Program-made: the position numbers and the translations under genes | Notes under the pieces: generated by a model | Databases searched by the model: none | Told to the model about the DNA's origin: nothing | Seen by the model: the letters and a program-made list of their open reading frames with translations, nothing else | Source of the DNA: Opeltia flavorubescens | Taxonomy: Eukaryota > Ascomycota > Lecanoromycetes > Teloschistales > Teloschistaceae | NCBI GenBank assembly: GCA_000442125.1 | Contig: KE546965.1 | Location: 1,488,001 to 1,552,000 of the forward strand | Length of the DNA: 64,000 bases | Direction of reading: 5' to 3' | Part shown: one piece after another, positions 18,640-39,039 of the stretch | Layout of the letters: each line of letters starts with the position of its first letter | Numbering within the stretch: position 1 is the stretch's first letter

Positions 18640-19230
18640 TTTTAAGCTAAATAAATAGTTAAAAATAGATCTAATCTATAATATATTATTAGATAAATTA
18701 ATAATAATTTAAAATTACTTTATTAATATATAAACTAAAGGCTAGATAAAGCCTTTAAATAATCTAATTAAAATATTAATACTATTCGTTAAAAAAATAA
18801 ATAGTAACTTATAATTATATATAAATTATAGGGGTTTTAATAAAATTATTATTAAAAATAAATATTTTTTACTTTTATTATTAGAAATTTTAAATAGATT
18901 TATATATATAAAACGATTTATTAAAATCGATATTTATAATACCTATTATTATATTTAAATTAGATAAAAAAATAAATAAAAGACTACGTTTTAAATTTAT
19001 TATAAATAGTTTAAATACTAGATTATACTATTTAATCTTATAAATACTTCTATTATATTCTAATTATATATTAATAAGGCGTTATAACCTTATCTAGATA
19101 TATTCTATATAATCTACCTAGATAATATACTAATCTATTCTAAAAATAAGGAGAAGTACTAGAAGTAAATTTATATAATTATTAAAGCTTTATTAAAATA
19201 TCGTTTATATATAAAATTATTAAAATATAC
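18640..19230 (+). pseudogene. Gypsy family 1 reverse transcriptase, copy A (fossil)
   Basis: The order of motifs is that of Ty3/Gypsy RT: a V-D-Y-R-x-L-N-x-x-T block near 18815-18860, the I-D-I-Y-N-A-Y-Y block near 18925-18960, and the catalytic box at 19109-19141 read as I-I-Y-L-D-N-I-L-I-Y-S (family form VYLDDILIYS). The Gypsy placement before RNase H and integrase is clear. The region is broken in many places. Confidence 0.88.
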
Positions 19231-19549
19231 TTTTAATTATACCGAAATTATATTTTTAAACTTTATAATAGGTTAATAAAAAATTTATATAGAGTTTTTA
19301 AAAATTAAGGCTATTAGCGAATAACTAGTACTAGAAAATATAAAAGATATCCTAATATTTCTAAAATTCGTAGGATTTTATAAGCGATTTATAAAAGGCT
19401 TTTTATAAATAACTACCCTTTTAATTAACCTAATATAAGGTACGAAAAAAGAATAAACTAGGCCTAAATTTATTTAATTTAAAAAAATATAAAAAATTTT
19501 TAAAAAATTATAAAGACTTTTTACTTTAACCTCTATTTTATAGTATTAT

Positions 19550-36525: not shown

Positions 36526-37427
36526 GTCTATATTCGGAATAATTTACTATTCCCTATTTAATTAACTATAAAAATTTTACTAGGTACTATTTATAAATAC
36601 GAGGCTAATAAATACTATTAAATTAGCTCGAAAAACTATAAACTAGCGATTAAAACGTTAAAATAAAAGCTTGAATAGTTTTTAAAAAACTTTAAACGCT
36701 ATATAATAGCCGTTATAACAGCTATTATAGCCTTAAATACCGCTATTCTACTATTTATAAACTTTAACTATCGGATAAAAGTAGTATATTCTATAAAAAT
36801 AATAATCTTTAGTATATAAACGGAATAAGCTATTTTAGCTACTTTAATTAAACGCTACTCGCGCTTATAATAAAATACCGGTAATATAATTAATATACTA
36901 GAGTTAAAATATATTGATATTATACTAATAAAAAATTAAAAATAGATTTATAAATTTAGATAAGCTTATATATATCCTATTAATATTTATAATAAAAAAG
37001 TTATTAATAAAGCCTTTAATAAGCTTTATAAGTAAAATCGAATAAAATAAATTATTATAACTACTTTATTTTTATTCTTTTATTTTATAATTTAGAAAAA
37101 GACCGATTAAAGTTCTAAAAACTATATTATTATTAATATTCAGGCACTTAATAAGATTATAATACTAGATATCTATCTAGTTTTATTATAAACGGAAATT
37201 CTAGCGTAAATTTATAATACTAAAGTTTTTTTTATAGTTAACCTTATAAACTTCTTCTATTAATAATAGATTAATTAATAGTACCGCTACCGTTTAATAA
37301 TAATTTTATATTAAAAATAAAAAACGTTTAAAATACCGGTAATAGGTTACCGTAATTTATCAACTTATATATAGCGGATAATAAATAGGATTCTATATAT
37401 ATTTTATTTCTTCTATAAAGCCTACGT

Positions 37428-37435
37428 TAATAATA
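37428..37435. repeat. Direct repeat left of the inverted-repeat element
   Basis: TAATAATA, repeated exactly at 37882-37889 on the far side. Because the sequence has an internal period of three, shorter duplications (TA or TAATA) are also formally possible, but 8 bp is the longest and is the reading that keeps normal spacing of the surrounding RT motif. Confidence 0.7.
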
Positions 37436-37448
37436 GGGAAATAATCCT

Positions 37449-37471
37449 CGAATCCCCAATTATCGCTAAAA
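37449..37471 (-). repeat. Subterminal repeat unit, left arm of the MITE-like element
   Basis: On the minus strand it reads ttttagcgataattggggattcg, the partner of the right-arm units at 37824 and 37846. Only one unit is present on this side. Confidence 0.7.
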
Positions 37472-37823
37472 TATATCTATCCCAATATTTACAGAGCTCC
37501 ATATAGCGTAATAATATAGATATTAAAAATTTGAAGAGTACGTTTTAAAGAGCTAAGTAAGCCCGTTCGATGTATCTAGTTTTTACTAGAATCCGAGCTT
37601 TCCTTATAAAGATATTCCACGGTGAAAGTTTACTACCGTAAAGAAGCCTTAGTATTATTTATAGAGTTAAAATCTTATAATTTAGCGCTAAATTAATATA
37701 AATTATTATTAAAAAGTTTATTTATTAAACGGGCTTGCTTAACTCTTTAAAACGTACTCTTTAGATTTTTAATATCTATATTATTACACTTTATAGAGCT
37801 CTGCAAATATTGGAATAGGTATA

Positions 37824-37868
37824 TTTTAGTGAAAACGGGAGTGTGTTTTAGTGATAAATGGGGGTGCG
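37824..37868 (+). repeat. Two tandem subterminal units, right arm of the MITE-like element
   Basis: Unit 1 (37824-37845) and unit 2 (37846-37868) share ttttagtga at their start and a G-rich end (ggg-gtg-g). They are 22 and 23 bp long. Short repeated motifs just inside the ends are the usual binding sites of hAT and some other transposases, which would explain their upkeep; this role is inferred. Confidence 0.75.
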
Positions 37869-38299
37869 AGGAGGTGCTCCCTAATAATATTATAATATTT
37901 TCCTTTTTAGTAGAAAAATACGTAAAATATTTTAACTAGATTTTTAGTATATTTAATACTATAAATCTATATTTATTATTTATAAAATCGTTTATTAATT
38001 ATACGTTTATATATCTATTAAATTAGAAAATTAATATTTTCGGGCTTATTATAGTAAAAAATAAACTAGAAGTGATTTTAAAGCTTTTATTTCTATATAT
38101 ATTCTAATAGTTAGAAAAATATTTAAATTTAATAAATTACCTTCGATAGTATATTAATAATTATATAGCTATTATAAAACTATTCTAAAAATGTAAAATT
38201 TATATAAACCGCGATATTACTATTAAAAATAACGCTTATAAAAAAACTACTATTTAGAATCTACTAGTAATATTTATATCTAAAAAATTTAACGTATTT

Positions 38300-38760
38300 T
38301 ATTATCTATAGAAACTTTTTTTATCGCTATTAATTCTAGTCTATTTTAATAAAAGCTTAGTATTATATATAAATCCAAACGCTAGTAAAAAGTTTAATTT
38401 TATAGCTTATATCTATTATAATATAAATAAAGCTATTTATAAAATAAATAAAAAATTTAAATAAAAATCTAAACGATCGATTCTATTTTTTAACCGCTTA
38501 TTATTAAACGCTAAAATACGCTATTAGTTTATAAAATTAAAGGTTATAGGTATTATTTAAATAGTTAAAAAAATCCGATTTATAATTAAAATAGTTAAAT
38601 ATATTATTATTATTTATATAAACTATTCTACTGTAATTAGTATTTTATACTAGACTAGCTTAAATATAGTATTTATAGAAAAGTTTAACTTCCGCTTAAT
38701 ATAAACTTTTAAATATTTTTAATACTTTAAACTTAATATTTATTATAAATCTAGAGTTAT
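38300..38760 (+). pseudogene. Gypsy family 2 RNase H (fossil)
   Basis: About 400 bp behind the RT, the frame contains an L-Y-I-N-x-x-A-S/N region near 38365-38400 and I-I-I-Y-I-N-Y-S-T-V-I-S-I at about 38607-38645, equivalent to the Y-T-D-H-x-A motif of this Gypsy group. Broken. Confidence 0.72.
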
Positions 38761-39039
38761 AAATACGGTTTTAAATATATTATTAAAGCTTATTAATTAT
38801 AAATACTATCTAGAAATAGACGAATCGCTAACCATAAAAGCTTTTATAATATATTACTTTCTAATAAGCCTAGTAGAAATATTAACTAAATTCTACTAAT
38901 AATTAATTAATAAATATATAAAAAAAGGTTATTTAACTAAAGTTAAAGAATTTATTAAAATTAATATAAAACTAGATAATAATATTATTAAACTACTATA
39001 TTATATTATTAACGCGCTACTTTACTTTAATAGTAATAA

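Follow-up and report, generated by a model that had tools for sequence, protein, structure and literature searches.

The window, i.e. the whole stretch of 64,000 nucleotides from Opeltia flavorubescens that was analysed (contig KE546965.1, positions 1,488,001 to 1,552,000; C1 in the following), contains an inverted-repeat element that begins with the letters GGGA at 37436, ends with TCCC at 37881 and is bordered on both sides by the same 8 bp (Table 1). A first-pass annotation had described the length, the ends and the exact flanking repeats of this element, here called M446, and all of these were confirmed to the base. M446 is located in a degraded Gypsy reverse transcriptase frame that reads ...YKAYVNN ahead of the element and NNIIIFS... 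behind it, and that continues through the insertion site in six of the seven paralogs fetched (e.g. YKAYIDNIIIFF), the seventh, L114, being out of frame at that point. On the reading of these frame halves and paralogs, M446 thus interrupts the YxDD box, which is the active-site motif, in a Gypsy reverse transcriptase degraded by RIP, in line with the earlier placement of the insertion in the catalytic region.

Table 1. Features of the M446 locus (positions in the window) and related elements elsewhere in the genome (contig:positions)
Feature	Position	Strand	Remarks
Degraded Gypsy reverse transcriptase frame, upstream part	36538..37434	+	25 stops in 299 codons, the fewest among six frames
YxDD box (TAC GTT AAT AAT)	37423-37434	+	closes the upstream frame part; from the frame reading
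Left target site duplication, 8 bp, TAATAATA	37428..37435	+	occurs once in the empty sites of paralogs
M446, non-autonomous MULE-type element	37436..37881	+	446 bp; same boundaries in at least 5 further full-length copies
M446 left terminal 43 bp	37436..37478	+	related to MULE ends; GGGA followed by TCCTCGAAYCCC and a sub-terminal CTAAAA unit
M446 left fold-back arm	37460..37588	+	partner 37707-37835; 109 of 129 positions complementary
M446 inter-arm stretch, 118 bp	37589..37706	+	from self-comparison and folding of the element
M446 right fold-back arm	37707..37835	+	partner 37460-37588; gapless pairing with the left arm
M446 right terminal 64 bp	37818..37881	-	homologous to MULE terminal inverted repeat; 76.6% over 64 bp against the MULE at C1:1033101-1036018
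Two sub-terminal units TTTTAGTGA, right side of M446	37819..37857	+	direct repeat D2; units 22 bp apart
Right target site duplication, 8 bp, TAATAATA	37882..37889	+	exact match to the left duplication
Same Gypsy frame, downstream part (NNIIIFS...)	37883..38781	+	RNase H region; 14 stops in 299 codons
C1 MULE	C1:1033101-1036018		2,918 bp; PF10551 at C1:1034828-1035121; exact 8-bp duplication TTTTATTA
C9 MULE	C9:1433720-1436913		3,194 bp; PF10551 at C9:1435751-1436002; exact 8-bp duplication GAAAAAAA
C11 MULE			RIPed; identity with the C1 and C9 MULEs 80-86%; duplication AAAAATAA; ends placed by eye
N701	C2:1751722-1752422		701 bp; same ends; own 8-bp duplication AATAAAAA

The Gypsy host and its empty sites

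Profile evidence for the host frame is weak, as is expected after RIP. No Pfam family matched the upstream part, and the downstream part matched RT_RNaseH_2 (E 0.0093) and RT_RNaseH (E 0.025), neither of which reaches the curated cut-off. In the Protein Data Bank the upstream part found two entries only, both weakly, namely 8r0s (E 0.046; 'enzymatic polyprotein'), presumably of the caulimovirus type, and 4ol8 (E 1; reverse transcriptase/ribonuclease H), which we take to be Ty3. The window copy and the 39 other host copies considered below are absent from a genome-wide list of RVT_1 matches (40 matches from 43 candidates). The reverse transcriptase assignment therefore rests on the YxDD context, the frame read-through in six of seven paralogs and the weak profile and structure matches taken together. 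The same AT-rich region contains another reverse transcriptase match, at window positions 18821-19264 (C1:1506821-1507264; RVT_1 E 1.8e-8), with ten stops.

Paralogs of the host were searched with a query of 2,046 bp around M446; the best 40 of 209 candidates were scored and yielded 85 listed stretches, from which 39 right-flank paralog stretches were counted after the window itself and five short rows had been set aside. Among these listed matches the site is empty, i.e. the left flank adjoins the right flank without M446, in 39 of 39 paralogs. The two flank alignments overlap by exactly 8 bases in 32 of them, by 6 in four and by 7 in one, and in the remaining two they end before meeting, yet the sequence across the site is continuous. 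The site itself reads TAATAATA in 32 and CGATAATA in four of 36 tabulated paralogs; three that were read separately carry CGATAATA, CAATAATA and TAATAATA, one each. The order proposed earlier, Gypsy first and then M446, is borne out by the nesting together with these empty sites.

Ends, arms and fold of M446

Counted from the ends of the element, the paired stretch extends up to position 153 on the left and position 175 on the right. The right arm is 22 bp longer because of the two sub-terminal units on that side (37819-37835 and 37841-37857), and the arm lengths given in the first reading, 133 and 155 bp, differ by precisely this repeat spacing. Similar units are visible in the ends of the MULEs and of N701 described below, and we regard them as putative transposase binding sites. 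As single-stranded DNA, M446 folds with -99.8 kcal/mol, whereas 100 dinucleotide shuffles average -36.2 (z -15.4) and none of them folds as stably as the native sequence. With its 446 bp the element is too small to encode a transposase, and it is multicopy with fixed boundaries.

Copies in the genome and their target sites

M446 was searched against its own genome (34.4 Mb, 23 contigs), which returned 25 stretches, of which many are matches of the palindrome to its own reverse strand; only the best candidates were scored, so that the copy counts are lower bounds. At least six full-length copies were recovered, namely the one in the window, those on C15, C12, C13 and C7, and a second one on C1, and a seventh, on C4, is split in two. 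The six share the same boundaries, are 82-94% identical to each other and have, as judged by eye, unrelated flanks; the C7 copy measures 448 bp, and RIP-type changes have altered the terminal letters of the C15 copy (which ends TTCC) and of the second C1 copy (AGGA...TTCT). The latter (C1:1474835-1475280, GC 0.249), which is more heavily RIPed, is situated about 13 kb ahead of the window. A sister family of 448 bp (M448) has two copies (C3 and C12), with 60-68% identity to the 446-bp copies. A weak match of 118 bp at C4:1901555 was set aside from the family count. The same-genome search that had been proposed thus finds a multicopy family, rather than the single copy, or the copies extending past GGGA/TCCC, that would have spoken against it.

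The flanks of related insertions were compared at 11 sites, nine of which have identical flanks in 8 of 8 positions, the other two being the second C1 copy (7/8) and the C13 copy (6/8). Among 110 cross-paired left and right flanks, none agrees in 8/8, three in 7/8 and ten in 6/8. The 8-bp duplication is therefore not due to chance, although the C13 match on its own means little, since 13 of the 110 cross-pairs reach or exceed 6/8. The C12 copy was kept out of this count on account of a 448-bp relative at its left edge; when this nest is allowed for, the copy has its own duplication TTGTTTAA on both sides and the nested relative has TAAGGGAA. The length of 8 bp is the same for elements of 446, 448, 701 bp and about 3 kb. 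Pooled over the 12 exact duplications, the G+C content is only 0.083, while most of the insertions sit in DNA of 40-52% G+C.

Longer relatives and the superfamily

A genome-wide search with the terminal pattern GGGANNNNNTCCTCNNACCCC (at most one mismatch) gave 34 places, against 9 for the reversed pattern that served as control, and some of the 34 are clearly chance matches with one mismatch. Longer elements of 2.9-3.2 kb have GGGA...TCCTC..ACCCC ends as in M446, 8-bp duplications and a MULE transposase domain (Table 1). Four loci in the genome match this domain, PF10551 (C1, C9, C11 and C15), and the fragment on C1, with stops read as X, matches with E 1.6e-14. The search for a transposase with the same GGGA termini, as suggested at the outset, thus leads to a MULE domain between matching ends. 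Partial matches to the MULE were also found on C2, C4, C8 and C21. No intact transposase with M446-type ends was found in the genome; the PF10551 domains on C1, C9 and C11 contain stops.

The fourth match belongs to a different MULE family, at about C15:444492-446911. It has inverted ends of 133 nt that are 93% alike, an apparent 8-bp duplication by eye (CAGATCGG) and a frame of 704 codons with one TAG break and one ambiguous residue, in which the MULE and ZSWIM RNaseH-like domains exceed the cut-off, which a SWIM zinc finger narrowly misses.

In the case of N701, both ends match the C1 MULE, one with 77% identity along 442 bp and the other with 71% along 212 bp, which indicates an internal deletion derivative of the MULE. 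M446 and the MULEs are homologous only in the terminal ~65 bp, with 75-78% identity (for instance 78.5% over 65 bp for the right end of the C7 copy against the C1 MULE), and no particular MULE copy can thus be designated as its direct parent. The end cores of the C7 and C12 copies of M446, TCCTCGAACCCC and TCCTCGCACCCCCA, are those of a split MULE on C4, whereas the corresponding core of the C1 and C9 MULEs is TCCTCTCACCCC, with TCCTTTCACCCC at one C9 end; end to end, the C7 copy and the C4 MULE agree in 31 and 37 of 43 positions. These likenesses are no more than suggestive of a MULE subgroup with asymmetric ends (C4 and C2) as the nearest partner of M446.

The ends and 8-bp duplications shared with elements that carry a MULE domain, together with the N701 derivative, identify M446 as a MULE-type MITE. 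We are highly confident that it is a MITE-type non-autonomous member of this MULE group, with ends that a transposase of the group would have bound in trans, and that the Gypsy copy was there first; the enzyme that moved it was probably supplied by the longer relatives that have since decayed. In the mechanism that we propose, the transposase of the group would bind the ends of M446, cut the element out and insert it into A+T-rich sites by 8-bp staggered cuts, which would leave the 8-bp duplication. One such insertion would have hit the YxDD box of a pre-existing Gypsy copy, and RIP would have acted on M446 as well.

Two other origins have to be weighed. Mobilisation by a hAT transposase, which the first-pass annotation had suggested from the duplication length, is compatible with 8 bp, a length that is not specific to hAT, and the target sites TTAATCAA, TTGTTTAA and TTTTAAAA fit the form nTnnnnAn of hAT elements, but TAATAATA, TTATATTA and TAAGGGAA fall outside it. 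hAT elements have short TIRs, to which neither the long arms nor the GGGA ends of M446 conform, and the ends are those of elements with a MULE domain; hAT MITEs thus share the duplication length with M446 but differ in ends, arm length and partner transposase. The hAT dimerisation domain Dimer_Tnp_hAT (PF05699) has no match in the genome, which weighs little by itself since the control genomes are silent too. We consider a hAT origin very improbable. KDZ (Zisupton-type) elements also make 8-bp duplications; their transposase domain PF18758 has no match in this genome, nor in the control genomes.

The annotation had itself offered Mutator-like or fold-back elements as an alternative, and rightly so: M446 has Mutator-like ends, partners with a MULE domain and a strong fold-back at the same time. 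A free-standing fold-back element, spread without a MULE transposase by, for instance, slippage or recombination, with ends that resemble those of MULEs by convergence, would account for the strength of the fold and for the inner arms, in which no MULE homology was detected. It would hardly account for fixed boundaries, for a duplication length equal to that of the MULEs, for the excess of the end pattern over its control, or for the graded series from MULE through the 701-bp derivative to the 446/448-bp elements with the same ends, and such an origin is to our mind scarcely credible.

RIP and the order of events

The weaker RIP imprint that had been noted on M446 is real: its composite RIP index is 0.71, against 1.27 and 1.26 in the flanks, and its GC content 0.305, against 0.226 and 0.161. 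As a yardstick for RIP we used the majority of the three M446 copies that lie in GC-normal DNA. The window copy differs from this majority at 49 positions, 43 of which are C>T or G>A, and 25 of these 43 lie at CpA (44 CpA being available). The corresponding C>T/G>A counts are 67 for the second C1 copy and 24 for the C15 copy, and 7-12 for each of the three GC-normal copies, a figure that is biased low because these copies themselves define the majority. The pattern of C>T and G>A changes points to the operation of RIP in this genome and to a filamentous ascomycete as its source. M446 is itself RIPed along its whole length, less so than its host, and has no clear gradient from edge to centre, so that a simple leakage of RIP inward from the flanks is not visible. 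Matches to a DNA methylase domain make up five stretches, with long open frames, at three loci (C5:1136660, C5:817279 and C1:624866), which are candidates for RIP or DNA methylation enzymes.

Length seems to affect RIP, as in GC-normal DNA the short members (446-701 bp) have a GC content of 0.39-0.43 and the MULE copies of ~2.8-3.2 kb have 0.353, 0.217 and 0.160, a comparison of present rather than original GC contents. The surroundings seem to matter as well, since those short members that lie in AT-rich DNA have been RIPed (GC 0.249-0.352). As a consequence, a weak RIP imprint is no clean clock, and from the relative date proposed earlier the order of the two insertions stands, but not the weak RIP as a sign of youth, which is confounded.

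A different timing, which is compatible with the MULE-type origin, is that M446 entered the Gypsy copy before RIP and was RIPed more lightly because it is short, not because it is young. The GC contents of short and long members in GC-normal DNA, suggestive of a length effect, and the RIP over the entire element without a clear edge gradient are in keeping with this timing. Both duplications, however, read TAATAATA, i.e. the RIPed form of the CGATAATA found in 5 of the 39 listed paralogs, and fewer changes are needed if the target had been RIPed before the insertion; this counter-argument is a weak one, since 33 of the 39 listed paralogs carry TAATAATA anyway. An insertion before RIP is a serious possibility, albeit on balance an unlikely one.

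Nested insertions and the C4 island

The split copy of M446 on C4 is rearranged, and its halves bound, exactly to the base, an AT-rich island of ~90 kb (C4:404189-494106). The copy has the outer duplication TTCTTCTT and contains a MULE with the duplication TTTTAATA, which is in turn split by roughly 86 kb of AT-rich DNA. In the interior of the island all 18 probes of 301 bp have GC contents of 0.06-0.30, against 0.47 and 0.54 for two probes outside, and in the first 1 kb on either side of the M446 copy the values are 0.485 and 0.406. The pieces of the copy measure 361 and 175 bp, which is ~80 bp more than one copy plus duplication, an excess that is due to an extra element end in the right piece.

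C4 404550-493931 was also considered as a mobile segment of 89 kb and rejected, as its ends are the outer parts of a C2-like MULE of ~2.85 kb (93% over 159 bp and 83% over 758 bp against the C2 MULE). With MULE parts at the ends and AT-rich probes in between, the segment appears to be a MULE into which repeats were inserted later, a reading that covers the 18 inner probes and the two edges. The M446 insertion seems to have been the starting point of the island.

The second nest, in GC-normal DNA at C12:786841-787737, is the two-step one mentioned above, with the 448-bp sister MITE inserted right at the border of an M446 copy. Of 14 insertions, two (the C4 MULE and the C12 448-bp relative) are thus located in M446 copies, where the 14 comprise the twelve with exact duplications, C13 and the second C1 copy, and exclude the C2 MULE (7/8 by eye). 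The nine M446 and M448 copies found amount to ~1.2e-4 of the genome, and the chance of two such nests in 14 is ~5e-4 even if a twenty-fold preference for A+T-rich targets is allowed for; this is a post hoc calculation on two events. That members of the MULE group prefer to land in copies of their own MITEs, and that a heterochromatic island can start from such a nest, is a speculative idea that we think doubtful.

Comparison with known systems

For MULEs in general, the part of the literature consulted documents long TIRs and duplications of 8-11 bp (PMC6446971). The fungal MULE Hop is described, in the available portion of its report, as an element of 3,299 bp with TIRs of 99 bp, 9-bp duplications and no apparent site specificity (PMC2725143). 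As far as these descriptions go, the partners of M446 resemble MULEs such as Hop in their PF10551 domain, TIRs of ~90 bp and a length of ~3 kb, and differ from Hop in their 8-bp duplications and A+T-rich targets; unlike in such MULEs, the three scored transposase domains of the group are degraded.

A close parallel by description is MuTAnT, a MULE MITE of Medicago, for which the accessible text gives a fold-back of 292 bp with TIRs of 144 bp, G-rich ends and A+T targets (PMC4486113). Like M446 it is a short non-autonomous fold-back with G-rich ends and A+T targets that has been assigned to the MULEs; unlike M446 it has, according to the same excerpt, a plant host, 9-bp duplications, TA-microsatellite targets and 218 related elements, against 8-bp duplications and at least seven copies here. 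In Mycosphaerella graminicola, one of 13 MITE families has duplications of 8-9 bp in the portion of the study seen (PMC4522978). Those MITEs are likewise short inverted-repeat elements, a likeness by description that involves neither superfamily nor end sequence, and the words 'Mutator' and 'GGGA' have no occurrence in the main text of that study. Excerpts of papers on maize and rice MULEs, which report nested insertions into MULEs (PMC3903597), and on the repeats of Cochliobolus heterostrophus (PMC4112212) decide nothing for M446.

Compared with the literature by description, M446 appears to be a new family of a well-known kind, with which it agrees in every feature examined. Among the papers listed by searches that used words rather than sequence, and as judged by titles and the beginnings of abstracts, there was no fungal MULE MITE with 8-bp duplications.

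Implications

With the assignment of M446 to the MULE group, a superfamily can now be named for an otherwise orphan MITE and a probable source of its transposase is indicated. At the same time, the base-exact orders of nesting can be used to date repeat islands, and the group provides a natural comparison of RIP between its short and its long members where their surroundings are similar, from which follows the caution that a weak RIP imprint on a short element should not be taken as youth. If the tentative preference for nesting were true, a RIP island would have arisen from a single insertion of ~0.5 kb, in a chromosome region of otherwise normal GC content.
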